Of a DNA stretch of 64,000 nucleotides, positions 42,655 through 63,269 are shown piece after piece. The translations under genes and the position numbers were made by a program. Source of the DNA: an uncultured Dysgonomonas sp. (GTDB lineage Bacteria > Bacteroidota > Bacteroidia > Bacteroidales > Dysgonomonadaceae); assembly GCF_900079725.1 (NCBI RefSeq), contig NZ_LT599032.1:3778054-3842053 (forward strand), read 5' to 3'. The stretch's first letter is position 1, and every line of letters starts with the position of its first letter. The notes below the pieces were generated by a model that was not told where the DNA came from, made no database searches, and worked only from the letters and a program-made list of their open reading frames with translations.

Positions 42655-43590
42655 ATGAAAACAATAAAGCTTTTCAAATCAATATTGGTCGTTCTCCTGA
42701 TCTCCTCCCCAATATTTGCTCAAAATGATGTAGACGAAACCATATATATCAAAAGCTCCCGCTTTGCATCTCCCCTGATTGAAAAATGGATTAGCGAATA
42801 TACCAAAGTGAATCCTCAGGCACAGATCAGGTTGGCAGATAATAGTGTAAAGGCAGAAAATATTTCCCTGAAAGTAGTGGTGTCTGACAATAGTAAAAAC
42901 GGATTACAGATTGGAGAACAAGTACTGTTCTTCGGTCGGTATGCGATCTTACCTGTCATTGGAAAGGATAATCCTTTACTCGCTGAATTTTCTAAGAAGA
43001 AGTTAAATGATAAAAGGATTAAAGATCTGTTCTTTGAAAAGGATATACTTAGCGAAGATACAAATTCTTCAAAACCTGATTATGATGTAACTGTATATTC
43101 GGGAAATAACAATGAATCTGTAGCACATAGCTTCGCTTCATATTTCGGTTATACTTCTTCAAGCCTGAAAGGTAAAAAAATATCCGGAGATGATGCCTTT
43201 CTTATAAATGCCATACAGAAAGATAAAACAGGTATCACATTCAATGCGTTGGGTAATATATTCGATATTAATACCCGTGGGTTAAAAGACAAAATCACCA
43301 TTCTTCCGTTGGATGTAAAGAAAGAATACCGCGACTATTTTACAGAATCTGTCAATATAGATAACGTGATTCAGTTATTGGAGTCGGAGCCTATCGATTT
43401 GATTCCTGTAGATAATATCGGGTTTGCATATTCTCCCGGAAATAAGGCGGTGAAAGAGTTTCTTGTATGGGTTTTGACAGAAGGTAAAACATTCAACCAT
43501 AGTTATGGTATTCTAAATCCCGATGAGAAAGTACTTACATACCAGAAAAAAGAACTGGAAAAAGTGCTATATACGATGAATCTGAAATAA
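42655..43590 (+). CDS. PstS-like periplasmic binding protein (orphan)
   Basis: 311 residues with signal peptide ending PIFAQ. The fold signature is that of a type-2 periplasmic binding protein of the phosphate/oxyanion group: IYIKSSRFASPLIEKWISEY at the start, LFFGRYAILPVIGKDNP, TVYSGNNNESVAHSFASYF, and IPVDNIGFAYSPGNKAVKEFLVWVL. No ABC permease or ATPase is nearby. It contains only 2 Met (one the start) and no Cys. The next gene is susC. It may capture a small ligand released by the TonB system, or serve as a sensor; the ligand is unknown. Confidence 0.75.
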   Translation: MKTIKLFKSILVVLLISSPIFAQNDVDETIYIKSSRFASPLIEKWISEYTKVNPQAQIRLADNSVKAENISLKVVVSDNSKNGLQIGEQVLFFGRYAILPVIGKDNPLLAEFSKKKLNDKRIKDLFFEKDILSEDTNSSKPDYDVTVYSGNNNESVAHSFASYFGYTSSSLKGKKISGDDAFLINAIQKDKTGITFNALGNIFDINTRGLKDKITILPLDVKKEYRDYFTESVNIDNVIQLLESEPIDLIPVDNIGFAYSPGNKAVKEFLVWVLTEGKTFNHSYGILNPDEKVLTYQKKELEKVLYTMNLK

Positions 43591-43608
43591 TAGTTTAAAT
43601 GTAAGAGA

Positions 43609-43650
43609 AAGTGCTTCTCCTTCCAATTGCAGCCGGATAAAGAAGCACTT
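43609..43650 (+). terminator. 10-bp hairpin between the binding-protein gene and susC3
   Basis: AAGTGCTTCT (43609-43618) pairs perfectly with AGAAGCACTT (43641-43650), 22-base loop. It lies in the 85-base gap before susC3. It could be a partial terminator or an mRNA processing site separating the two genes. Confidence 0.5.
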
Positions 43651-43675
43651 AATATTCTAAAATAGGTATTAGAAC

Positions 43676-46600
43676 ATGACAAATATACAATTTAATAAGG
43701 GTAAAAGATTACTCTTACAGGAGAAAAAATATCTCTTTCTATCTTTGTTTTTCCTGCTTTTCTTTTCTTTCTCGGTAAAGGGACAAACAGTAATTAGAGG
43801 AAAAGTATTGGATGAGCGCAGCGGAATTCCCGTATCAGGGGCTCTGATAAAAGTGAAGTCGACGAATAATGCTGTTCAGGCAGATTATGATGGTAAATTT
43901 CAGTTATCGGAGAATAAGCCGTTCCCAATCACCCTTCTTGTTTCATTTCTGGGCTTTAAAACGCAGGAAATAGATGTCTATGAATCCGGTGAAGAAATTA
44001 CAATCTCACTCTCGGAAAATAGAAATGTGCTGGATGAAGTTGTAGTTGTCGGTTACGGAACAGCTAAAAAATCCAGTTATACTGGGGCTGTTGCTGTTAT
44101 TGGTAACAAAGATATAGGGAAATTACAGATAACGAATATCAGTAAGGCTTTGCAAGGGTCTATTCCCGGACTTCAATCCGTATCGTCGGCCGGACAGCCC
44201 GGAAGCGATGCAGCTATCTTTTTGCGGGGAGTAGGATCCGTTAATGCATCCAGTACCCCATTGTATGTAGTGGACGGGGCGCCGTTTGCAGGTAGTATAA
44301 GTGCTATTAATGCAAATGATATACAGTCTATATCGGTACTGAAGGATGCTACGGCGAGTGCGTTATATGGTTCCCGTGGGGCAAATGGTGTCATTATCAT
44401 AAGTACTAAACAAGGTGCATCTAACCAGAAGCCGACGGTTGCATTCTCATCCTCTATCGGATTTACCTCAAGGGCGATTAAGGATTACAAAACGCTTACA
44501 ACTAAAGAATACTATGAACTGCAATGGGAGGCTATTCGCAATAACCAGTTGGATCAAGGCAAGTCGGCAGAAAATGCAGCTATATACGCATCAGCCGAAC
44601 TGGTAGGTTCATTGAAGATAAACCCCTTCGGCTCACAATATTCGCAGCCGGTAGGTACGGATGGGAAAATAGTGGCCGGGGCTGAACCATTATGGAACGA
44701 TAGTTGGGCTGACGCTTTGTCCCGTACAGGTATACGTCAGCAGTATGATTTGAGTGTGAACGGTGGGAGCGATAATTCTAAATACTTCGTTTCGGGAGGC
44801 TATCTGAATGAAAAAGGTTTTATAATAGGCTCCGATTTCGAGCGGTTCAATACCCGCGCAAATGTAACATCTACAGTAAACAAATGGTTGGAGACCGGCT
44901 TCGGAATTTCTGCTTCTACCAGTAAACAGAGTGCTCCTCCCCAAACAGATAGCAGTCAGGGTAACTTTGCCAATTTTCAACGCTTAGTAGCGGATATATA
45001 TCCGATCTATGAACGCAATGCAGATGGGTCGTATGTCCTTGATGCGAAGGGCGATAAAATATACGATTATGGAAACTATCGTCCAAGTTCGGCCGCTACA
45101 GGAAACAATCTTTTAGGCAGCTCCAAATATAATAAATATGACAACAAACAGGATATAGTTTCAGTCAGGGCAAATGCAACTATTACATTTCTGGAAGGTT
45201 TAAAGTGGAAAAATAGTGTTAATGCTGATTACAATGCACGTACCAATCATTCATATACCAATCCCGCTTATGGCTCCGGCATCAGTAACGGAGGTTCTGT
45301 AAGCAAAGGTTCCAGCAGGGCTATCGGCTATACGGTGAATAGTTTTCTGGATTATACATTCAATGTCAAAGACAAACATTTTATAAATATACTTGCCGGC
45401 CCCGAAGTATATGTTTATAACGTATCCTCTTTGTCGGGAAGCCGTAGTAACTTCGGTTTTCTCGATAAGGAAGAACCTGCAGCCGCTTCATTATTGAACA
45501 GCTTTACGGGTGCAGCGGATAATTATAAATTAGCCAGTTATTTAGGTAAAATAGATTATGATTATCTGCATCGTTACTATTTATCAGCCAGCTTTCGCCG
45601 CGATGGTTCGTCCAGATTTAGCGAAGATTCGCGCTGGGGTAACTTCTGGTCGGTAGGTGCTTCGTGGAACGCAAAATCAGAAGATTTCCTGGCTCCTGTA
45701 AAATGGATAGACAATCTGACTCTCCGTACCAGTTATGGAGCTCAAGGGAATGATAATCTCGGAACCTATTACGCCTATCAGGATTTATATTCTATTTACA
45801 ATAGTTTAGGACAAGCGGGGTTGATCAGCTCGAGACTTCCAACTCCGAACTTGAAATGGGAAACAAACCTAAATCTCAATTTTGGTGTTGATTTTGCTGC
45901 GTTTGATAACAGGCTGGTGGCATCAGTAGATGTATATGAACGCAAGTCGAAGGATCTTTTATTTAGCCGGCCGCTTGCTCCATCGCAGGGATTTGGACAA
46001 ATAGATGCAAATATCGGAGCATTACGCAATAGGGGGATTGAGGGGCAAATACAAGTTGTTCCTGTACGAAACAAAGATCTCAGATGGGACGTGAGCCTTA
46101 ATCTCGCACATTATAAGAATAAAATAACAGAACTTCCTCAAAAAGAAATTATTGCAGGAACTGTCGGACAGTTGGGATCTACCAAAAAGATGGTTGTCGG
46201 TGGCTCTGTCTATGATTTCTTTATCCGCGAATGGGCAGGTGTTAATCCCGAAAATGGCGATGCACTGTGGTATAAGAATGAATATACAAAGGATGCGAAT
46301 GGGAATGAGGTGATATCGGGACGTACTACAACGAATGTGTATGCGGATGCCGATCAATATTTTCAGGGAAGTTCATTGCCGGATATATATGGCGGTATAA
46401 CGAATACATTGACATACAAACAATTCGAACTGTCTTTCCTTCTTTCATACAGCATTGGAGGTAAAGTACTCGATCTCGACGAAGTGATGATTGCCCATAC
46501 AGGGAACAATCAGGGCCGGACATGGACACAAGAAGCTTTGACCAGATGGACGCCTGAGAACCGAAATACCAATTACCCCCGTCTTACGACTACGACTACA

Positions 46601-46861
46601 AACTGGAACTCGATTTCCTCACGCTTCTTATATGATGCTACATATGCACGTCTGAAGAATCTGAATCTTACTTACAATCTTCCTGCATCTGTGTTGTCAC
46701 ATGCAAAACTGAAACAGGTGAAACTGAGAGCTAATGCAGAGAACCTTCTGACATTTTTCGGACATAAAGGAATGGACCCGGAACAGGCCGTAGATGGTGT
46801 TACATTTTACCGTTATCCTGCTCAAAAATCATTTTCGTTCGGGATAGATATAACGTTTTAA
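43676..46861 (+). CDS. SusC/RagA transporter, sulfur-poor (peptide/sulfur locus A)
   Basis: 1061 residues. Signal peptide to VKGQ, regulatory-like sandwich (VIRGKVLDERSGIPVSGALI), TonB-box region DEVVVVGYGT, plug (PLYVVDGAPFAG, SVLKDATASALYGSRGANGV), barrel to the C-terminal FSFGIDITF. By hand count there are 4 Met (including the start) and no Cys, against 25 Met and 2 Cys in the similar-sized SusC at 10048. The companions are a thioredoxin, a carboxypeptidase and an amidohydrolase rather than glycosidases, so a peptide or amino-acid conjugate is the likely cargo. RagAB-type transporters import peptides in this phylum. Confidence 0.94.
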   Translation: MTNIQFNKGKRLLLQEKKYLFLSLFFLLFFSFSVKGQTVIRGKVLDERSGIPVSGALIKVKSTNNAVQADYDGKFQLSENKPFPITLLVSFLGFKTQEIDVYESGEEITISLSENRNVLDEVVVVGYGTAKKSSYTGAVAVIGNKDIGKLQITNISKALQGSIPGLQSVSSAGQPGSDAAIFLRGVGSVNASSTPLYVVDGAPFAGSISAINANDIQSISVLKDATASALYGSRGANGVIIISTKQGASNQKPTVAFSSSIGFTSRAIKDYKTLTTKEYYELQWEAIRNNQLDQGKSAENAAIYASAELVGSLKINPFGSQYSQPVGTDGKIVAGAEPLWNDSWADALSRTGIRQQYDLSVNGGSDNSKYFVSGGYLNEKGFIIGSDFERFNTRANVTSTVNKWLETGFGISASTSKQSAPPQTDSSQGNFANFQRLVADIYPIYERNADGSYVLDAKGDKIYDYGNYRPSSAATGNNLLGSSKYNKYDNKQDIVSVRANATITFLEGLKWKNSVNADYNARTNHSYTNPAYGSGISNGGSVSKGSSRAIGYTVNSFLDYTFNVKDKHFINILAGPEVYVYNVSSLSGSRSNFGFLDKEEPAAASLLNSFTGAADNYKLASYLGKIDYDYLHRYYLSASFRRDGSSRFSEDSRWGNFWSVGASWNAKSEDFLAPVKWIDNLTLRTSYGAQGNDNLGTYYAYQDLYSIYNSLGQAGLISSRLPTPNLKWETNLNLNFGVDFAAFDNRLVASVDVYERKSKDLLFSRPLAPSQGFGQIDANIGALRNRGIEGQIQVVPVRNKDLRWDVSLNLAHYKNKITELPQKEIIAGTVGQLGSTKKMVVGGSVYDFFIREWAGVNPENGDALWYKNEYTKDANGNEVISGRTTTNVYADADQYFQGSSLPDIYGGITNTLTYKQFELSFLLSYSIGGKVLDLDEVMIAHTGNNQGRTWTQEALTRWTPENRNTNYPRLTTTTTNWNSISSRFLYDATYARLKNLNLTYNLPASVLSHAKLKQVKLRANAENLLTFFGHKGMDPEQAVDGVTFYRYPAQKSFSFGIDITF

Positions 46862-46989: not shown

Positions 46990-48471
46990 ATGAAATCAAA
47001 ATTGATTATATATATATTATCTGTTTCATCGGTACTATTTGTTTCCTGCAGCGACAGTTTTTTTGAAACTTCGCCGTCGGGAGACCTCACCGGGAGTGAA
47101 GCCTATTCTACAACCTCTAATATTAATGCAGTTGTCAATGGTACTTTGCGTTATCTGATGGAGAATGCCACATCGCAGGATAATCCGGGGTATGGCGCAA
47201 TTCTGCTCACACAGGAAGTAATGGGTGAAGATGCTATAGCGCGTGACGGAGTTTACGGATACAGGGATTCTTATCCTTATCGCGATCCGTATGATAATAC
47301 GACACGCCGTGCCCTTTTCTTCTGGACATTGCAATATAAAATAATTGATAATGCAAACAATATTATTGCAAAAGTAGATGCAGCACAAGGTACGGATGAA
47401 GAGAAGAAGTATTTGAAGGGACAAGCTTACGCACTGCGTGCTTTTGTTTACCTCAACCTCGTTCGTCAGTATCAGTTCACATACTTGAAGGATAAGAACG
47501 CTAAAGCAGTCCCTATATATACAGAACCGACTGTGCCAAGTTCCGTTCCTAATCCTAAATCTACGGTAGAGCAGGTTTACGAACGTGTAATTTCCGATCT
47601 CACAGAAGCAGAGAAATTACTCACCGGATTCAAGCGTTCGGTAAAAAACCGCCCTGATATTAATGTAGTAAAAGGTCTTTTTGCAAGAACCTATCTCACG
47701 ACAGGGCAATGGGAGCTGGCTGCCAAATATGCGGCTGAAGCCCGAAACGGCTATCCGGTAATGGAAGCGGGCCAATATACCCAGGGTTTCAATGATGTAA
47801 GTAATGTGGAATGGATATGGGGACATCCCCAAACAGCCGATCAGAATTTGGGAGGAGCCTCATATTTTGCATATCTCGATGTGACGCCTACTACCGGCTA
47901 CCGGAGTATTATGCCTGATCCTAATTTCAGGAAACTGTTTAGCCCCCAAGATATACGATTCTCGTTGTTTGAACTGGTTACAAAAGAAACAGATCCGATG
48001 TATCGCTGGTATAAATACAAGAAATTTATCAATAAATCAGATCAGTCCGGTCATATTCCTTTAATGCGTTCATCGGAAATGGTACTTGTAGAAGCCGAAG
48101 GGAAAGCCCGTAACCATGATCTTACCGGAGCTGCAAAAGCATTGAACGAATTACGCGTGAAAAGAAATCTGGAAGAGGTTTCCGCTTCGGATTATACAGA
48201 GAGTCAATTGATAGACGAGATTCTGGTCGAACGTCGCCGCGAACTTTGGGGCGAAGGATTTCGTCTACCTGATATTCTACGCCTACAGATAGCTCCCGAT
48301 AGAAAAGAATCAACGGAAACATATACGTTGCCTTCAGGACAAACAATAACCATAAAGGGACACTACGTGTGGACATTCCCTGATAAGACGGCATTGGTTC
48401 CGAATAGTCTGTATTATCTGTTTCCTGTTCCCGTAAATGAAATAAACAATAATCCCAACTTAAATAATTGA
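46990..48471 (+). CDS. SusD/RagB lipoprotein (peptide/sulfur locus A)
   Basis: 493 residues, lipobox FVSC (Cys20). SusD hallmarks: YLKGQAYALRAFVYLNLVRQYQ, PLMRSSEMVLVEAEGKARN, LNELRVKRNLEEV and ILVERRRELWGEGFRLPDILRL. Eight Met and one Cys (the lipid anchor) by hand count. It lies 128 bases after susC3 and its stop is 2 bases before the thioredoxin start. Partner of SusC3 for surface capture of a probably peptidic substrate. Confidence 0.94.
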   Translation: MKSKLIIYILSVSSVLFVSCSDSFFETSPSGDLTGSEAYSTTSNINAVVNGTLRYLMENATSQDNPGYGAILLTQEVMGEDAIARDGVYGYRDSYPYRDPYDNTTRRALFFWTLQYKIIDNANNIIAKVDAAQGTDEEKKYLKGQAYALRAFVYLNLVRQYQFTYLKDKNAKAVPIYTEPTVPSSVPNPKSTVEQVYERVISDLTEAEKLLTGFKRSVKNRPDINVVKGLFARTYLTTGQWELAAKYAAEARNGYPVMEAGQYTQGFNDVSNVEWIWGHPQTADQNLGGASYFAYLDVTPTTGYRSIMPDPNFRKLFSPQDIRFSLFELVTKETDPMYRWYKYKKFINKSDQSGHIPLMRSSEMVLVEAEGKARNHDLTGAAKALNELRVKRNLEEVSASDYTESQLIDEILVERRRELWGEGFRLPDILRLQIAPDRKESTETYTLPSGQTITIKGHYVWTFPDKTALVPNSLYYLFPVPVNEINNNPNLNN

Positions 48472-48473: not shown

Positions 48474-49460
48474 ATGAAAAAGTATATTCTATCAATATTA
48501 ATATCTCTGGTTGTATTCTCTTGTGGAACCCGAGAGCCAGAGGGACTATCCTTGAACGGTAGTGTAGAAGGGATTTCGGAGGGAAAAGTATATTTGCAGA
48601 AGTTTGAAAATAAAATGTATCGTGTAATAGATTCTGCTGAAGTTATAAATGGACAATTCAGCTTTTCTAAAAATGTACAATTACCGGAAATATATGGATT
48701 GACATTAGATACGGCCAAAGGCTCATTACTCCTGTTCCTCGACAAAGATCCTGTGGTTGTAAAATTGGATTCATCATCCTATTATCGTAATAGTGTAGTC
48801 ACGGGTTCCGCACTTCAGGACTTGTTTGTCGCTTATAAAAAAGAGAGAGGGGTAAAGATAGATGAATTTATTAAAGCGAATCCTAAATCGCTGGTTTCAG
48901 CTTATGCTCTGTATCGGGATTTTTCGTACAGATTATCTCCTGATGAGATCAAGGCGAATATCCAGTTGCTCGATTCTTCATTGTGGAAAACTCCGTATGT
49001 GCAAGTGCTCGAAGAGCTGACGAAAACATTGGAGACAGTTTCTGTCGGAAAACAGGCTCCGGACTTTACAGCTAAAGATCCTGATGGGAATTCGGTAAAA
49101 CTATCCGATCATTTGGGAAAAGGATATCTTCTTATCGATTTTTGGGCATCTTGGTGCGGCCCTTGCCGGAGAGAAAACCCGAATATTGTAAAAGTGTATA
49201 ATGAATATAAGGGTAAAGGCTTTGATGTTTTTGCCGTTTCACTGGATAAAAGTAAAGAAGCTTGGGTAGCAGCTATAAAAAAAGATAACCTGACATGGAC
49301 ACATGTTTCAGACCTTCTGTATTGGGATAGTGAGCCCGCTAAGTTGTACGGTGTAAGGGCAATCCCATCTAATCTGCTTGTAGATAAGGATGGGGTGATA
49401 GTAGCTAAAAATATAAGAGGTGAAGAATTGGGACAGACATTAAAAGATTTACTGAATTAA
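48474..49460 (+). CDS. TlpA/ResA-like thioredoxin lipoprotein with DUF4369-type N-domain
   Basis: 328 residues from the ATG at 48474 (a TTG six bases earlier is rejected). Lipobox FSCG (Cys17). The N-terminal beta domain (about 25-105, SVEGISEGKVYLQKFE) resembles DUF4369, which often precedes thioredoxin domains in Bacteroidota. The thioredoxin domain starts near 190 (VGKQAPDFTAKDPDG) with the active site WCGPC at residues 227-231 and the cis-Pro in RAIPSN. Only Cys17, 228 and 231 are Cys, so every Cys is functional. It may reduce disulfides such as cystine or mixed disulfides in imported thiol compounds. Confidence 0.92.
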   Translation: MKKYILSILISLVVFSCGTREPEGLSLNGSVEGISEGKVYLQKFENKMYRVIDSAEVINGQFSFSKNVQLPEIYGLTLDTAKGSLLLFLDKDPVVVKLDSSSYYRNSVVTGSALQDLFVAYKKERGVKIDEFIKANPKSLVSAYALYRDFSYRLSPDEIKANIQLLDSSLWKTPYVQVLEELTKTLETVSVGKQAPDFTAKDPDGNSVKLSDHLGKGYLLIDFWASWCGPCRRENPNIVKVYNEYKGKGFDVFAVSLDKSKEAWVAAIKKDNLTWTHVSDLLYWDSEPAKLYGVRAIPSNLLVDKDGVIVAKNIRGEELGQTLKDLLN

Positions 49461-49478: not shown

Positions 49479-52022
49479 ATGAAGACCATTATAATCAGTT
49501 TTTTTTCTTTATTTTTATTTGCTGTAACAAGTGTCAAAGCTGAAAAAATCACATATTTTTTCGATCCGTCCATTCAGTTCGATAGCAAAATACCTTCTCC
49601 TGAAGAATTTCTCGGATATGAAATAGGTAGTCGTATAACAGAGCATTATAAGATAAATGCTTATTTTGAGAAACTCGCTTCTCTTTCCGACCGTGTTTCG
49701 CTGGTGGAGATAGGCCGGACACACGAAAACCGCAAATTGTATGTTTTGATTGTTTCTTCTCCTGAGAATATCCGGAATATAGACAAATACAAAGAGACGC
49801 GTCAGCAAGCCCGAAAAGGGGAGAAGCCGGATACTCCGTTAATTGTTTTTCTGGGAAGTACCGTTCATGGGAATGAGGCTTCGGGCTCGGAGGCAGCTTT
49901 GTTGTCTGCATATTATTATGTGGCTGCTCAAAACGATTTTGTAAAAGAACAGCTCGAAAATGGAATTTACTTTATTGATCCGGTGCGCAATCCTGACGGA
50001 CAGGAGCGTTTTGTATCTTGGGTAAATTCGAATACAAGTATAACCAATTATAATACATCGCAGTATGACAGGGAACATACTGAAGGATGGCCACGCGGAA
50101 GAGGGAACCACTATTGGTTCGACCTGAACCGCGACTGGGTTAATATTGTCCATCCCGAAAGCAAAGCCCGGGTTGCACATTATCAGGATTGGTTACCGCA
50201 TATACAGGCCGATCATCATGAGATGGGTACAAACAGTACATTCTTTTTCGAACCCACTGATCCGGACGGAAATGAGAGCCGCTTTGTTCCGCAGACCACT
50301 TATAAGTTGAACCGTTTATTTGCTGATTATTACTCAAAGGCTTTGGATAAAATCGGTTCGTTTTACTATACGAAAGAGTCTTACGATAATAAGAATCCAA
50401 CCTTCGGGTCTACATACCCTGATTACAACGGTGCAGTGGGCATTTTATTCGAACAAGGTTCTTCGAGAGGTATACATCAGGAATCTGAAAATGGGATCGT
50501 TACATTTGCTTTTACTGTACGCAACCAACTGGTATCGAGTATTGCTACAGTGGATGCCGCTAATGCTAACAAAAACGGCTTATTCGACTTGCAGAAAGAA
50601 TTTTTCGATGTGTCGCGTACAGGAAAAGACAGTTCCAAGTCATTTATAGTAGGAGATGCTTATGATATTTCGCGTTTGCGTAAGTTTGTTCAGTTGTTAC
50701 TTGACCATCGTATCGAAGTATATGAAAATCAGGAGGGCATAACGGTGGATAAGGTAAAATACGAAAAAGGGAAATCATACATTGTTCCACTCGGACAACC
50801 CAACAGTACGTTGGTCAATATCATATTTGACGAAACCAAAGATTATACCGATCCGTCCAAACTGGGTTATGGCGCGGGATTTTCGGTTGCTTACTCATCC
50901 GGCCTGTCGCATGCTTCCATAACAAAAGCTGTTCGCGGAGCCAGGGTTGAGAAACTGGAGAAATCTGCAAATAGATCATTCTCTACATCACAGTATGCCT
51001 ATATAGTAGATTACAGGGATTCGCATAGTCAGCATCTGCTTTTCCAATTATTAGCAAAAAACATTCTCGTAAAGACATCATTCAGTCCTTTTTCCGTACA
51101 AACTGAGAATGGAACTAAAGACTTCTCCTATGGAAGCCTGCTTATTCCTGTCAGCAACCAGACTATAAGCCCGGATGAATTATATGCCACATTACAGAAA
51201 TTGGCGGTTGCTTCAGACGTGGAAATAATACCCGTCTCTACCGGCTATAGTGTAAAAGGAGTGGATCTGGGCAGTAGTGCTTTCCGCACAGTGGAACAAC
51301 CGAAGGTACTGGTTATCACCGGAGGCAATATATCTTCTACCGAAGCCGGAGAAGTATGGCATCTCTTCGACCAGAAACTGAATTATCAGTTAACCCGTGC
51401 TGATTACAACGTATTTCCCAGAATTCCATTGAACAGCTTTAACCGGATTGTATTGGCAGGTGGCGATTATTCATTTCTCGGGAAACAGGGAATTCAGGAT
51501 TTGCAAAACTGGGTGCGCAACGGAGGAACATTGATTACAATCAACTCTGCTTCGAGATGGGCGGTAAATAATGGAATAAGTGCAGCACAATTACAGAAAT
51601 TGAAGACCGATTCTCTCCAGCAAAAACAATCAGAACAACAATTTCCACAGGAGAGAGACAGAATTCCGACATCGGTATTCGAAACAAAGATAAATCTGAA
51701 GCATCCTTTAGCGTTTGGGTTAACGAATGAGTCTTTACCTGTTACCCGCGAGAGTAGCCTCTTTCTGGCTCCGTCGAAGAATCCGTCGGCTACGGTATCA
51801 GCCTATTCAGATAATCCGTTACTGAATGGATATATCTCCGCTTCACAGTTAAGCAATCTGAAAGGATCGGCTTCGATAATAGCGGAAAGACAAGGCTCCG
51901 GAAATATTGTATTATTCGCTGAAGACCCGCTTTTCAGAGGTATTTGGGATGCCACTACCCGTACTTTTGTTAACGCTGTTGTTTTCGGGAATAATATAAA
52001 CGCATACAATAGCTTCAGATAA
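49479..52022 (+). CDS. M14-family zinc carboxypeptidase, secreted, sulfur-poor
   Basis: 847 residues, signal peptide to VKAE. Zinc and catalytic residues of M14: His130 and Glu133 in VHGNEASG, Arg in NRDW (217-219), a His of HHEMG (around 246-247) and Glu325 in GILFEQGSS. The catalytic domain occupies about 40-370; the C-terminal 450 residues have unknown fold and include a glutamine-amidotransferase-like segment (VLVITGGNISSTEAGEVWHL, VLAGGDYSFLGKQGIQDL). Only 2 Met and no Cys in 847 residues. It removes C-terminal residues from peptides; with the neighbouring amidohydrolase it could liberate amino acids for the adjacent symporter. Confidence 0.88.
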   Translation: MKTIIISFFSLFLFAVTSVKAEKITYFFDPSIQFDSKIPSPEEFLGYEIGSRITEHYKINAYFEKLASLSDRVSLVEIGRTHENRKLYVLIVSSPENIRNIDKYKETRQQARKGEKPDTPLIVFLGSTVHGNEASGSEAALLSAYYYVAAQNDFVKEQLENGIYFIDPVRNPDGQERFVSWVNSNTSITNYNTSQYDREHTEGWPRGRGNHYWFDLNRDWVNIVHPESKARVAHYQDWLPHIQADHHEMGTNSTFFFEPTDPDGNESRFVPQTTYKLNRLFADYYSKALDKIGSFYYTKESYDNKNPTFGSTYPDYNGAVGILFEQGSSRGIHQESENGIVTFAFTVRNQLVSSIATVDAANANKNGLFDLQKEFFDVSRTGKDSSKSFIVGDAYDISRLRKFVQLLLDHRIEVYENQEGITVDKVKYEKGKSYIVPLGQPNSTLVNIIFDETKDYTDPSKLGYGAGFSVAYSSGLSHASITKAVRGARVEKLEKSANRSFSTSQYAYIVDYRDSHSQHLLFQLLAKNILVKTSFSPFSVQTENGTKDFSYGSLLIPVSNQTISPDELYATLQKLAVASDVEIIPVSTGYSVKGVDLGSSAFRTVEQPKVLVITGGNISSTEAGEVWHLFDQKLNYQLTRADYNVFPRIPLNSFNRIVLAGGDYSFLGKQGIQDLQNWVRNGGTLITINSASRWAVNNGISAAQLQKLKTDSLQQKQSEQQFPQERDRIPTSVFETKINLKHPLAFGLTNESLPVTRESSLFLAPSKNPSATVSAYSDNPLLNGYISASQLSNLKGSASIIAERQGSGNIVLFAEDPLFRGIWDATTRTFVNAVVFGNNINAYNSFR

Positions 52023-55168: not shown

Positions 55169-58100
55169 ATGGCAAAAACAATTAGCTCTTTTAGCGATAA
55201 GAGAGACCGGCATCGTGTAAATAAGTATTATTACATTTTCGTATTCTTTCTATTGCTATCAGGTAGTATGATAGGGCAAACAGTAATAAAAGGTACAGTT
55301 GTAGACGAAAAAAACAGGGAGCCTCTGGTGGGAGCCTCTGTCGCATTGGTTTCTACCACACAGGGTAGTCTCACTGATATAGACGGGTCCTTTTCTCTCC
55401 CTGTTTCGGGACAACTGCCTGTTACTATCAAGGTGGCTCTTGTGGGTTTCAAATCACAGGAATTGGATGTATATGAAAATAACGGGCCGATCATTATTCC
55501 CTTAACGGAAGATTTAAATTATCTGAATGAAGTAATCGTGGTCGGATATGGTACCCAAAAGCGTAAAGAACTTACCGGGGCTATTTCTTCGGTTTCAAAA
55601 GATGCGTTATCGCAATTATCTACTTCATTCGATGGATTACTGGGGGGAGCCGTTTCCGGCTTGAATGTATCCCAAAACTCCGGTCAGCCCGGAACTACTT
55701 CCAACATTCGCATACGTGGAGGAAACTCTATAAACGGAGGGAATGAGCCTTTGTATGTGATAGACGGGGTTATAATATATAACGACAATTCGTCGGCCAA
55801 TATCGGGATAAGCCGTGCTGCCGGGGCATTGAATCCGTTAGCTGCATTGAATCCCGGTGATATTGAATCCATAGAGGTGCTGAAAGATGTGTCCGCTTCG
55901 GCCATCTATGGTTCGCGTGGAGCAAATGGTGTAATTATTATTACTACCAAGAGTGGGAAAAAAGGGAAGACGAATATTGAATATCAATATTCTATCGGCT
56001 GGCAGCAAGCCCGTAAAAAGCTCGATCTGATGAATGCGCGCGAATGGGGTGAGCTTTATCTGGAAATCGCATCTGCCGAAAATATCAGTGAAACCGGTCT
56101 TACTGCTGAAAAAGTGGCGCAATTGGGTGAAGGTACAAACTGGCAGGATGCAGCCCTGCGCACAGCGACAACCCAGAACCATCAGCTTTCGATAAGCGGC
56201 GGAGATGATAAGACGAGGTTTCTCTTATCTGGTAATTACAGCGATCAGGATGGTATCTTGCTGAACACGGGCTTTAAGCGTTATAGCGGACGGTTCAACT
56301 TTGAAAGGGATTTATTCTCTAATCTGACCGTAGGTTTGAACGTTACAGCCAGTAAAATGGATCAAAGCGGATTGAGCAGCTATAACGGACTGTATGTGAA
56401 CGGTGTTTCAAACTCGCTCGATTATGTATTGAGGATACCGCAGGTAGTTTCTATATATAATCAGGATGGAAGCTATAATTACAATAACCTTTTCGAAAAA
56501 GGGGATTTACGATTTGGCGACCGTACCGTAAATGCCATATCGGATCTGGTTAATACGACATCGCAGACAAAAAATAATACTCTCATCGGAAACTTTTTCG
56601 CTAAATATACTATCATCCCCTCGTTGGTGGCTAAGGTTAGTGCAGGAACCAATCTGAGTAATACGACCCTCAATTTTTTCGCGCCTTCCAGCGCTGCGGC
56701 AGGTTTTCTGGCTAAAGGGTATGGAAGTATCGGAAACAAGCGGTTCGATTCGTGGCAATATGAATATACGCTCAATTACACAAAGAAGCTGAATAAAGAC
56801 CATTATGTGGATATATTGGCCGGTTATACGACCCAGACCACCGATATAGAATACTCGATAGCATCGGCCAGTAATTTCGCTAACGAACAATTGTCTTACC
56901 ATAACCTGCAGGGAGGCGCCACTCTCTTGTCTCCAAGTTCGGGCGGTTCGGAATCTATCCTCAATTCGGTACTGGGAAGGGTCAACTATTCTTTCCTCGG
57001 CAGGTACAATCTTACCGGGACATTCAGGGCGGATGGTTCTTCCCGGTTTGCAAAAAATCATAAATGGGGTTATTTTCCGTCCATCGGTTTGTCATGGAAC
57101 GTTAGCGAAGAACCTTTCCTGAAAAATAATAAGGTCATCAATGATCTTAAACTGAGGGGAAGTTTCGGGGTTGTCGGCAATCAGGAGATAGGCGACTACC
57201 GATATGAAGCGACATACGCTACAAAGGTATATTCTTTCAATAACCAGCTCGTTACGGCTTACGGCAGGGCTAATGCTGAAAACCCCGACCTGAAATGGGA
57301 AGAAACATCGCAATATAATCTGGGTTTTGATCTGAATCTGCTTAACCGCAGACTAGGCATTATAGCCGATGTTTATTATAAAAAGACAAGCGACCTGCTG
57401 CTGGATGTGCCTGTGGAAATAACAACAGGATTCAGCACCATGCTTATGAATGTGGGCAATGTTACAAATAAAGGAGTGGAATTCGCATTGACAGGCAGCA
57501 TTATAGATCAGAAAGACCTGCAATGGAATCTGTCTGCCAATATTGCTAAAAATGTAAATGAAGTCACCAATATCGGTAATCTGGATTATTTCCTGTCCGG
57601 TAATACGATCATAAAGAAAGGAGAATCTTTAGGCTCTTTTTATGGTGTTGTCTTCGATGGAATAGTACAAACCGGAACAGATATTTCGAAAGTACCTGCG
57701 CCGAGCTGGAAAACGAGTGTTGAGCCCGGTGATGTAAAATATGTCGATCAAAACAACGACGGCAAAGTTACTCAGGATGAGGACAGAGTTGTCTTAGGTT
57801 CTATTCAGCCTGATTTCACTTACGGATTTTCTACCACACTGAGATATAAATCATTGAGCTTATTTGCAGCTTTTCAGGGTAGTAAAGGTAATCAGCTATA
57901 CAATCAGCTCCGGCAGGAGCTGGAATCACCATCCACCAGCTACAATGTATTAGCTACACTCCGTGACAGATGGACGCCGCAGAATCCGTCCAACACAATT
58001 GCTAAAGCATCTGTAACTTCTGCCACATGGCTCGATAGCCGCTATATCGAAGATGCCTCTTTTCTACGTCTGAAAAATATAACTCTGAGTTATGTCCTTC

Positions 58101-58273
58101 CTGTGAAAATAACAAAGGCTCCTCAGACAAAATTCAGAATTTTTGCAACGGGACAAAACTTATTGACCTTTACCAAATATAAAGGATACGACCCTGAAGT
58201 TTCCAGCGGTATAGATTCCGGAGCATACCCCACAGCGAAGACAATATCTTTTGGTGTGAATATATCTTATTAA
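55169..58273 (+). CDS. SusC/RagA transporter, sulfur-poor (peptide/sulfur locus B)
   Basis: 1034 residues. Basic N-terminus then signal (to MIGQ), sandwich domain (VIKGTVVDEKNREPLVGASV), TonB-box region NEVIVVGYGT, plug (PLYVIDGVIIYND, VLKDVSASAIYGSRGANGV) and barrel ending TISFGVNISY. Six Met and no Cys by hand count, again strongly depleted compared with the two polysaccharide SusC proteins. It is preceded by leader peptide 2. Cargo is probably a peptide or thiol conjugate, from its companions (OsmC-type protein, S9 peptidase). Confidence 0.94.
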   Translation: MAKTISSFSDKRDRHRVNKYYYIFVFFLLLSGSMIGQTVIKGTVVDEKNREPLVGASVALVSTTQGSLTDIDGSFSLPVSGQLPVTIKVALVGFKSQELDVYENNGPIIIPLTEDLNYLNEVIVVGYGTQKRKELTGAISSVSKDALSQLSTSFDGLLGGAVSGLNVSQNSGQPGTTSNIRIRGGNSINGGNEPLYVIDGVIIYNDNSSANIGISRAAGALNPLAALNPGDIESIEVLKDVSASAIYGSRGANGVIIITTKSGKKGKTNIEYQYSIGWQQARKKLDLMNAREWGELYLEIASAENISETGLTAEKVAQLGEGTNWQDAALRTATTQNHQLSISGGDDKTRFLLSGNYSDQDGILLNTGFKRYSGRFNFERDLFSNLTVGLNVTASKMDQSGLSSYNGLYVNGVSNSLDYVLRIPQVVSIYNQDGSYNYNNLFEKGDLRFGDRTVNAISDLVNTTSQTKNNTLIGNFFAKYTIIPSLVAKVSAGTNLSNTTLNFFAPSSAAAGFLAKGYGSIGNKRFDSWQYEYTLNYTKKLNKDHYVDILAGYTTQTTDIEYSIASASNFANEQLSYHNLQGGATLLSPSSGGSESILNSVLGRVNYSFLGRYNLTGTFRADGSSRFAKNHKWGYFPSIGLSWNVSEEPFLKNNKVINDLKLRGSFGVVGNQEIGDYRYEATYATKVYSFNNQLVTAYGRANAENPDLKWEETSQYNLGFDLNLLNRRLGIIADVYYKKTSDLLLDVPVEITTGFSTMLMNVGNVTNKGVEFALTGSIIDQKDLQWNLSANIAKNVNEVTNIGNLDYFLSGNTIIKKGESLGSFYGVVFDGIVQTGTDISKVPAPSWKTSVEPGDVKYVDQNNDGKVTQDEDRVVLGSIQPDFTYGFSTTLRYKSLSLFAAFQGSKGNQLYNQLRQELESPSTSYNVLATLRDRWTPQNPSNTIAKASVTSATWLDSRYIEDASFLRLKNITLSYVLPVKITKAPQTKFRIFATGQNLLTFTKYKGYDPEVSSGIDSGAYPTAKTISFGVNISY

Positions 58274-58307: not shown

Positions 58308-59855
58308 ATGAAGAAGTTATTATATACCTTAATATTATCGGTGACAATTCTTTCATGCAGCGATAGTCTTGATGTGACGCCCATAGGCAAACTGATGGGC
58401 GGAAACTTTCCCGTAACGGATGAGGACGCCATAGCCCTTACCAACGGGATTTATGCGCCTAACGTTGGTATTAGCACTTCGCTGGCGTATATGATAGATC
58501 TTACCACCGAAACCACTGTTTCGGGGGAGAATCCGAATAGTGGCGGAGGATTATTGGGTTTGATACAGTGGGAGCCGACCAATAGTTATGTGACATCGGT
58601 ATGGACCGCGTTTTATGTAGGTATTACAAGCGCAAACGATGTTATCGATAAATTATCGGAATCCAAAACCGTTTCCGAATCCATTAAGAAACGCTCTATC
58701 GGCGAAGCCAGATTCCTGCGGGCATATTACTATTATTATGCAGTGCAGTTTTGGGGAGAAGTGCCGTTAGTCTTACATAATGTTGATGGAAAAAACACGA
58801 CCCGCGCGTCGATAGATGAGGTGTATGCACAGATCGAAGACGACCTGAAAAGTGCCGCAGATAATTTACCCAATGCGAGCAGTTACGCAGACAGCGATAA
58901 AGGCAGGGCAAGCAAAGGCGCCGCTTATGCATTATTGTCAAAAGTATATCTGGTATGGGCGCAAACATCTGAAAGCGGAGGCGACACAGCCCGCAAAGAC
59001 AGATTCCGGAAATCTGTAGACGCAGCTAATAGTGTAACAGGATACGAACTGGAAGAAGTTTTTTTGGATAACTGGAACGTAAACCATAAAAACGGTAAAG
59101 AAAATATTTTCTCTACCCAACATGCCTCTGGTACTGCAACAGATGGTAGTGGAGGTAATCACTTAGCACACTGTGCTTTTTCGAGTGGTTTCAGCAATAC
59201 TACCCCTCATGTACTAGTCTCGGATAATAAATACTATGACGCTTTCGACGACCGTGACCAAAGAAAAAGCGGAACATATGCCAAAGAGTTATATAATCCT
59301 GCTACAAATTCGGTCTTTACATTCACGCGGCCACGCTTTCGCAAATATATTGACGCCAGCGACCCGTTGGGTTCGGCCAGTAACCGCAATATCAACAGGT
59401 CTATCATACGCTATGCCGATATTTTGCTGGTAAAAGCCGAAGCAATCAATGAACTGAATAACGGACCGACAACAGATGCTTATGACGCAATAAACCAGGT
59501 GCGGAGAAGAGCTTTCGAACATTTCCCTCTAAATCAAACATCTCCGGACGATTTGCCGGCAGGACTTGATTACAACGGCTTCAAAAAAGCGGTTCAGCAG
59601 GAAAGGATGTTTGAACTTACCTATGAGCAAAGCCACTGGCTCGATCTGGTAAGATGGAGAGTTTATGTTAAGACCTTAAAGGAATCGGGATTAGACGAGA
59701 GTTACAAGAAAAGTTCCGTAAGCCTCAAAAACTACCGTTTTCCTATACCTCAATCCCAACGGAATATAAATCCCGAAGGTTTATGGCAGAACTGGGGATA
59801 TGACGGTTATAACGAATCGAAGACCGGTGCAAATCCTTATGCCGGCTTCGAATAA
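58308..59855 (+). CDS. SusD/RagB lipoprotein (peptide/sulfur locus B)
   Basis: 515 residues, lipobox LSC (Cys17). SusD hallmarks: KKRSIGEARFLRAYYYYYAVQFWGEVPLV, IIRYADILLVKAEAINELNNG, INQVRRRAFEHF and QQERMFELTYEQSHWLDLVRW. Four Met and two Cys by hand count. It starts 34 bases after susC4. Partner of SusC4. Confidence 0.94.
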   Translation: MKKLLYTLILSVTILSCSDSLDVTPIGKLMGGNFPVTDEDAIALTNGIYAPNVGISTSLAYMIDLTTETTVSGENPNSGGGLLGLIQWEPTNSYVTSVWTAFYVGITSANDVIDKLSESKTVSESIKKRSIGEARFLRAYYYYYAVQFWGEVPLVLHNVDGKNTTRASIDEVYAQIEDDLKSAADNLPNASSYADSDKGRASKGAAYALLSKVYLVWAQTSESGGDTARKDRFRKSVDAANSVTGYELEEVFLDNWNVNHKNGKENIFSTQHASGTATDGSGGNHLAHCAFSSGFSNTTPHVLVSDNKYYDAFDDRDQRKSGTYAKELYNPATNSVFTFTRPRFRKYIDASDPLGSASNRNINRSIIRYADILLVKAEAINELNNGPTTDAYDAINQVRRRAFEHFPLNQTSPDDLPAGLDYNGFKKAVQQERMFELTYEQSHWLDLVRWRVYVKTLKESGLDESYKKSSVSLKNYRFPIPQSQRNINPEGLWQNWGYDGYNESKTGANPYAGFE

Positions 59856-59892: not shown

Positions 59893-61149
59893 ATGAAAAT
59901 CTATTCACAGGATACAAAAAAACGGATAAGTATATTGGCTATTATTATACTTTCCGTATTTGGAACAACATCAGTTGATGCACAGACCGATAATGCTAAT
60001 ACAGGCCCCAATTCTGTATTTGTAAAAGATGCGGTTAAAAAGGCATTTGAACAGAATGCCAGTCCATTGCGCAACTATCTTTTCAGCAGGCGGGAAGCAC
60101 TCATTAAATTGCAAAGCCTGCCAAGTGAGGAATTACAGGCTGTAACATTAGAAGCCCGTACCACAGCAGAGCAGAGGTCGGGCTTACGGAGAATGCGTAT
60201 CCGCGGCTTCCAGATCATAAGCGATAGCGGAACGGACTTTGCGGGTTACAATGTAGGACCGGGTTCACCCGAATCGCAGGTTGCGATCATAGCCAGTGAT
60301 TTAGCGGATAGCTATCTTAATCAGGCAGCTCTGAGAAATATACCTATCGATTCATTAAGAATCGAAATCATAAATCGTCCGGATGCCGCTCCTACAAATA
60401 AGGTGAGTTATCCCCGTAACTTCCTCTATACTGCATATATAAAATCGTCAGCGGATGATAAGCAACTGGAAGAATTACGGAAGGCCGCGGAAGCAAATTC
60501 TCCGATATTCAATTTTATCCTAAAGCCGCAGGTAGTGACCGGGGAAATTGATTATACCCGGACTCCCGATAAGCTGGTGATACCGGAAGGAGGGCAGCCC
60601 GGACTCCGAGAATATCTGAAATATAAGCGTGCCGCGTACTTACATCTTCAGGAAGAAGGCAAGAAACGGGAAGAAGAGAGAAAGAAGAATCCATCGCTGG
60701 CGAATAACGAGAACCGTAATCCTCTGGTGGTTACGGTAAACAATAACGGTGTCCGCCAGCTTCAAATCCGCCAGTTCCGTATATTGCACGACAATCCTGC
60801 ATATCTGGGAGGAAGCGACCTCGGACCTACCTCTCAGGAACATCAGTTAGGTGTGTTGACAAGCTGCCTTACTCATATTTTCCTGATTCAGGCTGCTGCC
60901 CGCCAGGTTCCGCTCGATTCGCTGGAAGTGAATGTAAAAGCCACCTCCGATATTCGTGCCGGGCGCAGTGGTTTTGAGACTGTCCCCGGCTATCCGTATG
61001 ATATTCATTATACCGTGCATGTGAAATCTCCGGCAACATACGAACAAATCGAAGTGTTGCGGGATGCCGTAGAAGCAGTTTGTCCGATATATAACTTATT
61101 GAAGGATGAACAAACAATAGAAGGCCGTATAGTTAAAATAGGTAATTAG
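59893..61149 (+). CDS. Exported tandem OsmC-domain protein, first domain without cysteines
   Basis: 418 residues with signal peptide (to about SVDAQ, residue 31). Two OsmC-like halves are visible: about 95-220 (VGPGSPESQVAIIASDLADSY then IDSLRIEI) and about 285-418 (LGPTSQEHQLGVLTSCLTHI then LDSLEVNV). The second half has the OsmC/Ohr Cys pair, Cys325 and Cys397 (VCPIYNLL). In the first half the same positions are Asp136 and Ser203 (NSPIFNFIL), so it cannot be a thiol peroxidase. OsmC proteins are normally cytoplasmic, so export is unusual. These two are the only Cys in the protein. Confidence 0.82.
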   Translation: MKIYSQDTKKRISILAIIILSVFGTTSVDAQTDNANTGPNSVFVKDAVKKAFEQNASPLRNYLFSRREALIKLQSLPSEELQAVTLEARTTAEQRSGLRRMRIRGFQIISDSGTDFAGYNVGPGSPESQVAIIASDLADSYLNQAALRNIPIDSLRIEIINRPDAAPTNKVSYPRNFLYTAYIKSSADDKQLEELRKAAEANSPIFNFILKPQVVTGEIDYTRTPDKLVIPEGGQPGLREYLKYKRAAYLHLQEEGKKREEERKKNPSLANNENRNPLVVTVNNNGVRQLQIRQFRILHDNPAYLGGSDLGPTSQEHQLGVLTSCLTHIFLIQAAARQVPLDSLEVNVKATSDIRAGRSGFETVPGYPYDIHYTVHVKSPATYEQIEVLRDAVEAVCPIYNLLKDEQTIEGRIVKIGN

Positions 61150-61171
61150 GTAAATCCAGATTGTGGATTTG

Positions 61172-61205
61172 TTGGAAGTGCTTCTTGCAGGCACTTCCAA
61201 TTTTT
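61172..61205 (+). terminator. Strong intrinsic terminator before the S9 gene
   Basis: TTGGAAGTGC (61172-61181), 9-base loop, GCACTTCCAA (61191-61200), then TTTTTA: a perfect 10-bp stem with a T-run. A smaller hairpin AAATCCA/TGGATTT (61152-61170) precedes it. It ends the susC4 transcript, or attenuates it into the S9 peptidase gene. Confidence 0.8.
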
Positions 61206-61223
61206 ATAGTTAATTCGAAAAAT

Positions 61224-63269
61224 ATGAATAGAATTTATACCATTATATTACTGACTGTTTTTCTTTTTCCTATTTATACAGGTTACGGATATTCAGCCTA
61301 TGGCAAAGAGCCGGTTGGTATCGACTTTTTTACGAAAGTTAGGAGCATTTCTAATCTGAAAGAAAATAAAGGGGATATATTCTTTATCCTTCGACAGCCC
61401 GATTTAGAGGGAGACACATACCGAAGTGACTTATATCAGCTGGTGGATGGAAGGGAGTTAAGACTGACATCTTCAGAAAATGTCTCCGATTACTTTTTTC
61501 TTGACGATACTATTATTTTCAAAAGTATACGCGATGAAAAGGACAAAGAAAGACTAAAGAAAGGAGAGCGGCTTACAATATTTCAGAAATTGACCAAAGG
61601 TTATCAGGAAGCAACAGAATGGTTGCGGTTGCCTTATGCTGTAAAAGATATCCGGCTAATAGACGGAAACCGTTTCTTTTTTACAGCTTCTTATCGGTTG
61701 GCTCCGAAAGAAGAATCCCGGACGGAGGTGCTGAAAGACATAAAAGAAAATGGAAGGTATCGTATCTTCGATGAATTACCCTTTTGGTCGAATGGTCAGG
61801 GTGATATCAGTGGAACCCGTACCCACCTTTATTATTATGATAAAGGAAAAATCACCGACCTTTCAGATTCTCTGGAAACGGTTTCCGACATAGAACTTAG
61901 TCCCGATAAGAAGCATCTGGCTTATATCCGTAAAACATACCGGAGGAAGGCTTCACAAGATAACAGTCTGGTATCATTGAATACCGGAACATTGGAGAAA
62001 AAAGAATGGAATTTGTTCAATAAAGCCGTTTACTCCCAAATCCAGTTTGCGGATAACAATGAATTTGTTGTTCTGGTCAATCGCAGCTTAGAACGCAATA
62101 AACAGGAGAATCCTGAATTTTATCGTCTGAATTTGTCATCAGGGAATATTAAAGGAATATATGATGGAGATTTGTATGCGATAGGCAATAGTATCGGTTC
62201 TGATATCAAGTCGGGGGGCCGTAGCAAAATTACATTTGATAAAGATGGGTTTAATTTTGTTTCAACTGTGATAGATCAGGCTCCACTTATCCACATAAAT
62301 TACAAAGGCACCTCTATATCTGTTCGTTCGCCGAAAAATATCTCTATAAACGATTATGTACCCTATAAGGATGGCTTTCTGGTTGTAGCCATGGCAGAGC
62401 AACAGGGAGAAGAAGTGTATTTTCTCAACAGTAAAGGAGAGATTTCCCTTTTGAGTTCCATTAATACGGCCCTGTTTGAGAACCATAATGTTGTGAAACC
62501 TATAGAAATAAAATTCAGAAATGAAGATGGACGGGAACTAAACGGCTATATTCTGCCTCCGGCCAATTATAAGAAGAACGAAAAATATCCGGCTATATTA
62601 AATATACATGGAGGCCCGAAAGCAACTTATGGGACAGTATTCTTTCACGAGATGCAGTATTGGGCAAATCAGGGTTATGCCGTTCTATATACCAATCCCA
62701 CAGGCAGTAATGGGAGGGGAAACGCATTTACTGATCTGCGGGGTAAATTCGGCTCTGTAGATTATAATGATCTCATGGCTTTTGTGGATGCAGCGATAGA
62801 ACAGGTTTCGTTTATTGACAGAGGACGTTTGGGGGTTACCGGCGGATCTTACGGCGGATATATGACCAACTGGATAATCGGACATACCAATAGATTTAAA
62901 GCGGCGGCTTCGCAACGGAGCATCTCTTCATGGATTTCCTTCAGCAACACGAGTGATATCGGACATACTTTTACCGAATCATACATCGGTCATAATCTAT
63001 GGACAAACAGTGAGCTGTTATGGGAACAGTCTCCCCTGAAATATGCAGATCAGGTAAATACACCAACGTTGTTCCTCCATAGCGATCAGGACTACAGATG
63101 CTGGTTGGTTGAAGGTGTGCAGATGTATTACGCCCTTCAATATTTTGAAGTCCCGACCCGCCTGATAATATTCAACAATGAAAACCATGAATTATCCCGG
63201 TCAGGGAAACCTAGAAACCGGATCAAACGCTTGGACGAAATTACCCGGTGGTTTCAGAAATATTTATAG
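61224..63269 (+). CDS. S9-family (prolyl oligopeptidase-like) peptidase, exported
   Basis: 681 residues from the ATG at 61224; a longer frame starting at 61161 would run through the terminator and is rejected. Signal peptide MNRIYTIILLTVFLFPIYT. An N-terminal propeller domain (to about 430) precedes an alpha/beta-hydrolase domain: HGGPKATYG, catalytic Ser542 in GGSYGGYM, Asp623 in HSDQDYRCW, His655 in NENHELS. It cleaves short peptides, possibly releasing dipeptides. Six Met and one Cys, again sulfur-poor for its size. Confidence 0.92.
   Translation: MNRIYTIILLTVFLFPIYTGYGYSAYGKEPVGIDFFTKVRSISNLKENKGDIFFILRQPDLEGDTYRSDLYQLVDGRELRLTSSENVSDYFFLDDTIIFKSIRDEKDKERLKKGERLTIFQKLTKGYQEATEWLRLPYAVKDIRLIDGNRFFFTASYRLAPKEESRTEVLKDIKENGRYRIFDELPFWSNGQGDISGTRTHLYYYDKGKITDLSDSLETVSDIELSPDKKHLAYIRKTYRRKASQDNSLVSLNTGTLEKKEWNLFNKAVYSQIQFADNNEFVVLVNRSLERNKQENPEFYRLNLSSGNIKGIYDGDLYAIGNSIGSDIKSGGRSKITFDKDGFNFVSTVIDQAPLIHINYKGTSISVRSPKNISINDYVPYKDGFLVVAMAEQQGEEVYFLNSKGEISLLSSINTALFENHNVVKPIEIKFRNEDGRELNGYILPPANYKKNEKYPAILNIHGGPKATYGTVFFHEMQYWANQGYAVLYTNPTGSNGRGNAFTDLRGKFGSVDYNDLMAFVDAAIEQVSFIDRGRLGVTGGSYGGYMTNWIIGHTNRFKAAASQRSISSWISFSNTSDIGHTFTESYIGHNLWTNSELLWEQSPLKYADQVNTPTLFLHSDQDYRCWLVEGVQMYYALQYFEVPTRLIIFNNENHELSRSGKPRNRIKRLDEITRWFQKYL

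Follow-up and report, generated by a model that had tools for sequence, protein, structure and literature searches.

The 64,000-nucleotide window analysed here (uncultured Dysgonomonas sp., contig NZ_LT599032.1, positions 3,778,054 to 3,842,053) carries at 42655-63269 a block of ~21 kb encoding eleven proteins that are strongly depleted of methionine and cysteine. The block is likely an uptake gene string of a sulfur-limitation regulon, the products of which have been purged of these two residues. The eleven proteins contain 52 Met+Cys in 6558 residues (0.79%), compared with 3.26% pooled over 253 background open reading frames (ORFs; 150 aa or longer) picked automatically from 19 stretches of 20 kb that are spaced evenly along the genome. 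Hence, the low content is not a genome-wide property. The number 52 excludes initiators but keeps two Met at uncertain starts, and is 50 with refined starts. The depletion is confirmed and is wider than the original prediction, which had proposed sulfur sparing, had seen. Two short leader ORFs ending in Met and Cys codons and a palindrome accompany the block, which is organized as follows.

42249..42268, no strand: palindrome AATACC-N8-GGTATT, operator-like, the upstream site of the block (pattern match).
42350..42493, plus strand: leader ORF 1, 47 aa, ending GMRMSMCCC before the stop; the same ending occurs in genome G015, locus L277.
42655..43590, plus strand: periplasmic binding protein, 311 aa, 2 Met and 0 Cys, perhaps of PstS-like fold (tentative).
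43676..46861, plus strand: SusC3 TonB-dependent receptor, 1061 aa, 4 Met and 0 Cys (family match).
46990..48471, plus strand: SusD3 lipoprotein, 493 aa, 8 Met and 1 Cys, the latter lipobox-like (family match).
48474..49460, plus strand: thioredoxin-like lipoprotein with DUF4369 and AhpC/TSA domains, 328 aa, 2 Met and 3 Cys (family match).
49479..52022, plus strand: M14 zinc carboxypeptidase, 847 aa, 2 Met and 0 Cys (family match).
52064..53521, plus strand: M20-family amidohydrolase, 485 aa, 6 Met and 1 Cys (family match).
53571..54752, plus strand: SDF-family (PF00375) symporter, 393 aa, 6 Met and 3 Cys, the least depleted member (family match).
54808..54957, plus strand: leader ORF 2, 49 aa, ending HMRMCC before the stop, within the gene string.
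55169..58273, plus strand: SusC4 TonB-dependent receptor, 1034 aa, 6 Met and 0 Cys (family match).
58308..59855, plus strand: SusD4 lipoprotein, 515 aa, 4 Met and 2 Cys (family match).
59893..61149, plus strand: 418-aa protein with a C-terminal OsmC domain, 2 Met and 2 Cys (family match).
61224..63269, plus strand: S9 prolyl-oligopeptidase-family peptidase, 681 aa, 6 Met and 1 Cys (family match; ATG start, moved from TTG at 61161).
63296..63315, no strand: second palindrome AATACC-N8-GGTATT at the block end (pattern match; it also scores as a terminator).
63402..64000, plus strand: pyridoxal-phosphate (PLP) enzyme of Cys/Met metabolism, 404 aa, 1.74% Met+Cys, extending beyond the window (gene call).

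Recounting reproduced the Met and Cys numbers originally given for SusC3, SusC4, the M14 peptidase, the binding protein, the OsmC protein, and SusD4, as well as those of SusC1 (25 Met and 2 Cys in 1078 residues), while SusD1 has 30 Met and 8 Cys instead of about 34 and 8. The depletion is uneven. None of the 253 background ORFs is as low as the M14 peptidase, one each is as low as or lower than the binding protein, SusC3, and SusC4, and the respective numbers are 4 for the OsmC protein, 5 for SusD4, 6 for S9, and 11 for M20. The first six proteins are within the lowest 2% of the background, and with S9 and M20, eight of the eleven are within the lowest 5%. The thioredoxin-like protein (19 ORFs), SusD3 (21), and the SDF symporter (37) only reach the lowest 8-15%. 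The original prediction did not mention these three, nor S9 and M20. The leftover Cys had been explained as lipid anchors or catalytic residues. Judged by eye, this explanation suits SusD3, the thioredoxin-like protein (a lipobox-like Cys plus a CxxC motif), and one Cys of SusD4, but neither the three Cys of the SDF symporter nor Cys289 of SusD4. It may apply to Cys626 of S9, Cys132 of M20, and the two Cys of the OsmC protein. The coding frame of the block has 7.3 ATG per 1000 codons, compared with 31.1 in four SusC/D genes at 10-37 kb, and the other two frames have 39.8 versus 50.9 and 6.4 versus 7.3. As the loss of ATG falls mainly on the coding frame, base composition does not explain it. 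One background ORF, a lipoprotein-like protein of 447 aa (L021, 9361-10704), matches the lowest block proteins with 0.22% Met+Cys.

We then compared the receptors and the M14 peptidase with their own families. SusC and SusD family matches stand in tandem, making SusC3-SusD3 and SusC4-SusD4 SusCD pairs. The genome holds 56 SusC, 55 of which passed the filters. Over the last 940 residues, SusC3 (0.32%) and SusC4 (0.43%) have the lowest Met+Cys content of the 55, and the other 53 range from 1.17 to 3.09% with a median of 2.13; sulfur poverty is therefore not a mark of all SusC of the genome. Met is the most extreme low residue of SusC3 and SusC4, at 3.6-3.8 standard deviations below the others, while Leu is raised in SusC4, and Ala and Ser are raised in SusC3. 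The absence of Cys from the two receptors was rejected as evidence, because Cys is nearly absent from every SusC of the genome (0.05% on average) and Met is the residue depleted. The M14 family is graded in the same sense. The eight nearest sequences (our genome, G019, G044, G033, G056, G066, G010, and G014; 38-100% identity) have 0.12-0.46% Met+Cys, the next three (G074, G097, and G081; 34-36% identity) have 1.98-2.22%, and six distant ones have 3.76-4.61%. The M14 peptidase and both receptors are thus below their families, and leaders are present near the five low M14 genes that were viewed for them (our genome, G019, G044, G010, and G014).

The leaders are short ORFs with Cys codons beside the stop, and they recur in other species. 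The original prediction had tied the low sulfur content to the two leader peptides. Leaders are indeed present at both halves of the block, but their endings hold Met codons besides Cys. Relatives of SusC4 were sought in our genome and 100 relatives, and 30 SusC loci were fetched. At 12 of them, our own included, a leader with a Met/Cys ending is located upstream of a SusC with 0.32-0.84% Met+Cys; one of these leaders has a single Cys (L085, RMRMCY). Altogether, 11 relatives of the order have Met/Cys-ending leaders before SusC of 0.32-0.85%, and G058, described next, is a twelfth. Three further low SusC appeared leaderless at first: L078 (G044, 0.00%), which has Met/Cys-rich frames upstream of the operon, L079 (G058, 0.84%), whose one-Cys leader ending RMRMRC before the stop had been missed by the rule, and L088 (G052, 0.11%). 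The other 15 SusC have 1.47-2.84%. Leader-bearing SusC that are only 39% identical to SusC4 (G010 and G014) are low as well. The Cys codons are kept while the wording varies: MRMSMCCC, MRMCC, RMRMYCC, MRMCMCR, RMRMCCL, TRMCCC, SMRMHCC, QTCCCK, and TRCCCC. Another leader, ending MRMRMCC before the stop, lies one gene upstream at L122 (Bacteroidales UBA3663). In G044, a Met/Cys-rich frame TCCMTMCCCMAMCM was seen by eye in a predicted hairpin upstream of a binding-protein gene (L206, ~4850-5108, minus strand).

Recurrence extends beyond the order. A scan of named genomes, covering the best 80 of at least 596 relatives, found CCC-type leader endings before SusC of 0.11-0.21% at five loci, in four Flavobacterium species and one Mucilaginibacter. 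The SusD proteins behind these leaders have 0.2-0.6%, and the viewed Flavobacterium loci add a sulfatase-like protein of 0.31%, for which L126 gave a PF00884 sulfatase match; sulfatases are also near the G052 locus. At L126 and L129 of Flavobacterium, the leaders are ten residues long and end in CCSK or CCCK. They precede a SusCD-sulfatase string, possibly a sulfate-ester counterpart, in which the receptors and sulfatase-like proteins range from 0.2 to 0.7% Met+Cys. Automatic detection of leaders was noisy. Applied to the 166 SusC for which sufficient DNA lies upstream, a loose rule gave 22 hits on the sense strand and 10 on the antisense strand; single cases are therefore credited on the basis of their conserved ending. 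A stricter rule, applied to the 120 of these 166 SusC retained in a tree after thinning of own-genome controls, gave leaders at 18, of which 17 are below 1.0%. Searching for the leader DNA itself was rejected as a marker: the exact pattern matched 4 of 101 genomes, with G045 and G051 matching inside a SusD-like gene, and a looser pattern matched 6 of 393 genomes of the order, the five matches outside our genome being inside longer ORFs.

The palindrome AATACC-N8-GGTATT is another common denominator of the family and often marks sulfur-metabolism genes. Two copies are found in the window, where 0.02 are expected. The whole genome has four (42249, 63296, a copy within a gene, and a copy ahead of a receptor-like gene), and a reversed-pattern control has none. 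The upstream palindrome at 42249 sits just before TAATTTTG (42290..42297, plus strand), which fits TAnnTTTG, presumably the Bacteroidetes -7 element, followed by leader 1. The palindrome was also seen by eye before leaders in nine other genomes, six of which, plus G048, are among the matches listed. Of 101 genomes, 60 have a match; the control pattern matches many genomes too, so single sites may be chance. There are at least 75 distinct sites: 4 in our genome, 11 at loci already viewed, 43 in 40 stretches, and 17 remaining. The 40 stretches were fetched by site with their neighbours unseen and chosen by genome, mostly from the same genus and family. Read by eye, 17 of the 40 have sulfur genes, or receptor operons with a Cys leader, next to the site. 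These comprise four cysK (once together with an O-acetylhomoserine (OAH) sulfhydrylase gene, and once with the site also in a doubtful ORF), two OAH sulfhydrylase genes alone, three metNIQ, four leader operons, and one each of cysDNH behind a PstS-like protein, siroheme genes, sulfite reductase, and an SDF symporter. A hidden Markov model (HMM) scan of one example per kind placed CysK, CysD, CysN, CobA/CysG, MetQ, OAH sulfhydrylase, NIR_SIR, and SDF above the cut-offs, and CysH (partial) and MetN just below; the remaining copies were named by likeness to these examples. Next to the leader operon of G010 are a CBS-type enzyme (PALP plus CBS), MetQ, a NIL-domain ABC ATPase, a permease, and two PLP enzymes resembling the one adjacent to our block. 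A second palindrome type, mostly AATACCTA-N4-TAGGTATT, precedes operons of a receptor, a lipoprotein, and a third gene (L246, L248, L259, L279, L281, and L282), and is paired 32 nt apart in G010 and G006.

Sulfur poverty is not restricted to exported proteins, since the OAH sulfhydrylase, a cytosolic enzyme, is nearly sulfur-free. We examined 50 of its 83 matches. The 25 with at least 74% identity, among them our own, all lack Cys and have 0-2 internal Met (0-0.47%). At 68-74% identity, five of six sequences have 1.16-2.13% and one has 0.70%, and 16 of 19 distant ones have 2.84-4.73%. In G054, the OAH sulfhydrylase gene follows cysK behind the palindrome. The most extreme exported case is in G048, where the palindrome and a leader ending FMRCC before the stop precede a 926-aa TonB receptor having no Met or Cys after the start. 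An alternative to sulfur economy is that surface and periplasmic proteins shed Met and Cys to avoid oxidation. It would agree with the exported appearance of the most depleted members and with the OsmC and AhpC/TSA domains in the block. However, the 53 other SusC of the genome are undepleted, the OAH sulfhydrylase (cytosolic by family knowledge) is depleted, and the partners of the palindrome are sulfur genes, which makes oxidation avoidance very improbable.

A number of observations weigh against the regulon reading. Low SusC without a detectable Cys leader are common, so a leader is not a necessary mark. No leader was found at L088, and of the 80 named-genome SusC, 27 have at most 0.84%, 22 of which have no Cys leader in the 700 nt upstream (for some, the DNA available there is short); accordingly, the phylum-wide form of the claim is borne out in part only. 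By the loose rule, 15 of the 166 SusC are below 0.6% and leaderless; SusC3, L078, and L122 have a leader further upstream, and 12 are still leaderless after hand inspection. Conversely, a leader-bearing SusC of G010 (L245) has 1.17% with a SusD of 1.96%, and a doubtful short Cys ORF is present at L093 before a SusC of 1.49%. On the tree of 120 SusC, an independent-pairs test had about one informative pair of ten with a p value that is not significant, leaving correlated evolution of leader and low Met unproven. As for the palindrome, 23 of the 40 stretches have neither a sulfur gene nor a Cys leader at the site: one has a sulfur-poor leaderless SusCD, seven have sites inside genes, six have sites before a different receptor operon (core mostly TA..TA), and nine have other genes or nothing. 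The role of the copy at 63296 is ambiguous, because its stem and T run are also terminator-like. The close OAH sulfhydrylases form one clade, and a site with at most 2 mismatches lies within 450 nt upstream of only 9 of the 25, our own not among them; three of the 19 distant ones are at 0.00, one with a 2-mismatch site. Sulfur poverty does not span the whole set of site-linked proteins, either, as CysK (0.96-1.27%) and MetQ (1.5-1.9%) are mildly depleted at most, and MetN, MetI, CysDNH, and the siroheme and sulfite-reductase proteins are less depleted or not depleted.

Part of this evidence would also suit plain inheritance, in which the SusC, SusD, and M14 subfamilies were Met-poor from an ancestor, the poverty is not maintained, and the leaders are coincidental. 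The low sulfur content is clade-structured, the independent-pairs test is uninformative, and many low SusC of other lineages have no leader. On the other hand, several unrelated families of one gene string are all depleted, leader-bearing paralogues at 39% identity are depleted too, the cytosolic OAH sulfhydrylase, found at the palindrome in three genomes, is depleted while most of its distant homologues are not, and the loss of ATG is mainly in the coding frame. We therefore consider inheritance alone unlikely. The sulfur-sparing interpretation of the original prediction is supported, with the block proteins presumably made during sulfur starvation; neither of the two refuting outcomes that it had named was observed.

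For the regulon reading, we propose the following mechanism. A putative regulator would act at AATACC-N8-GGTATT, and the transcripts would then run through a leader ORF, or two of them, closing with Met and Cys codons. A shortage of charged Cys- or Met-tRNA may stall the ribosome there and so allow expression of the downstream genes, either by attenuation or by shielding from Rho a stretch that is rich in C and poor in G. Both SusCD receptors, together with the periplasmic binding protein, the peptidases, the thioredoxin-like protein, and the symporter, would take up and process a nutrient that carries sulfur. Peptides containing Cys or Met, or disulfides, are the most likely candidates, and the Cys/Met PLP enzyme next to the block would make use of them. 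Selection may have purged Met and Cys because these large, probably abundant proteins would be needed just when Cys and Met are missing. Extending this to the phylum, we give an even chance to a two-layer sulfur economy in Bacteroidota, in which a palindrome regulator and Met/Cys leaders gate SusCD receptors, peptidases, and certain assimilation enzymes. These would have evolved to contain almost no Met and Cys, or none, so that a cell already starved of sulfur can still make them, the sulfur sources differing by lineage (peptides or disulfides here and sulfate esters in Flavobacterium).

The conserved leader end may instead be an RNA or DNA signal rather than a peptide sensor, with the palindrome-binding regulator alone in control. 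The leader DNA CGAATGCGAATGTGTTG is itself alike among several genomes, eight leader regions have a further common hairpin before SusC, and one-Cys leaders exist (G048 and G058). In contrast, Cys codons persist despite changed DNA, inserted codons, or another leader body, mostly before an in-frame stop (G035, G044, G010, Flavobacterium, and Mucilaginibacter), and the leader ends of the near twins G054 and G058 differ by an in-frame 3-nt gap. A pure nucleic-acid signal is rather doubtful on this evidence, and sensing through the leader peptide is preferred. No shared terminator or antiterminator was seen after the leaders, which counts against the proposed mechanism. TAnnTTTG is absent from the 250 nt before leader 2. 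In the 40 nt after 14 leaders, the excess of C over G averages 0.14, compared with -0.01 upstream of leaderless SusC; this C-rich stretch would suit Rho, though only as a hint. A near-invariant hairpin, AACACTTCCTCCTCCGACGGCA...GGAAGTG, is located up to ~60 nt before SusC in leader-SusC operons. It has one match per genome in 10 of 101 genomes (the L107 8807-8850 region, L108, L109, L110, L112, L113, L114, L115, L118, and L119) and is absent from our own genome. At the gathering score, Rfam has no match at the leaders or hairpin in the window, L110, L118, and L113; its matches elsewhere in these four sequences are cobalamin and thiamine pyrophosphate (TPP) riboswitches only.

Polycysteine leader ORFs act as cysteine-responsive attenuators in mycobacteria. 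The leaders described here are alike in being short ORFs with Cys codons right before the stop, upstream of sulfur genes; they differ in phylum, in their mixed Met+Cys endings such as MRMCC, in their bodies of 41-87 aa (at Bacteroidales-type loci), and in that the second leader is inside the gene string. The block resembles SusCD uptake systems (TIGR04056 / PF07980, PF14322) in combining receptor/lipoprotein pairs with enzymes in one string, whereas its composition and regulation point to sulfur and not glycans. Proteins required under sulfur shortage have few Cys and Met (PMC2940859, citing Baudouin-Cornu et al. 2001; Mazel and Marliere 1989). This is the likeness with known sulfur-sparing proteins; the difference is that here it concerns SusC/TonB receptors of ~1000 aa and peptidases in Bacteroidota, with leader ORFs and a common palindrome, and at the extreme the 926-aa TonB receptor without internal Met or Cys. 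For a Flavobacterium, attenuation by leader peptides is described ahead of amino-acid operons, with no SusC link mentioned in the passages concerned (PMC9723704). In the literature searched, of partial coverage and hence a weak negative, neither Cys/Met leaders nor SusCD that spare sulfur are reported for Bacteroidota. Sulfur sparing as a principle is already known, whereas a form that includes SusCD receptors, leaders, and a common operator-like site was not found there. The block joins three separately testable things, namely protein composition, leader ORFs, and an operator-like DNA site. It offers a lead, taken from sequence alone, for picking out uptake loci that respond to sulfur from the large number of Bacteroidota SusCD pairs still unassigned, and the TonB receptor and OAH sulfhydrylase without internal Met or Cys are natural extremes for studying the limits of sulfur dispensability.

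The identities of two gene products were inspected further. The binding protein has no Pfam or NCBIfam family (one match is far below the cut-off), and a PDB sequence search gave none. The best PDB matches of its predicted model are phosphate-binding proteins, and the PstS-like identity is tentative because the model confidence is moderate (pLDDT 65.5) and the TM scores are 0.4-0.5. The assignment of the PLP enzyme comes from a PF01053 match on the 98.5% identical G019 copy, for which all NCBIfam names are below the cut-off. Between the OsmC and S9 genes (61171-61201), a 13-bp hairpin followed by a T run gives a terminator-like score inside the gene string.

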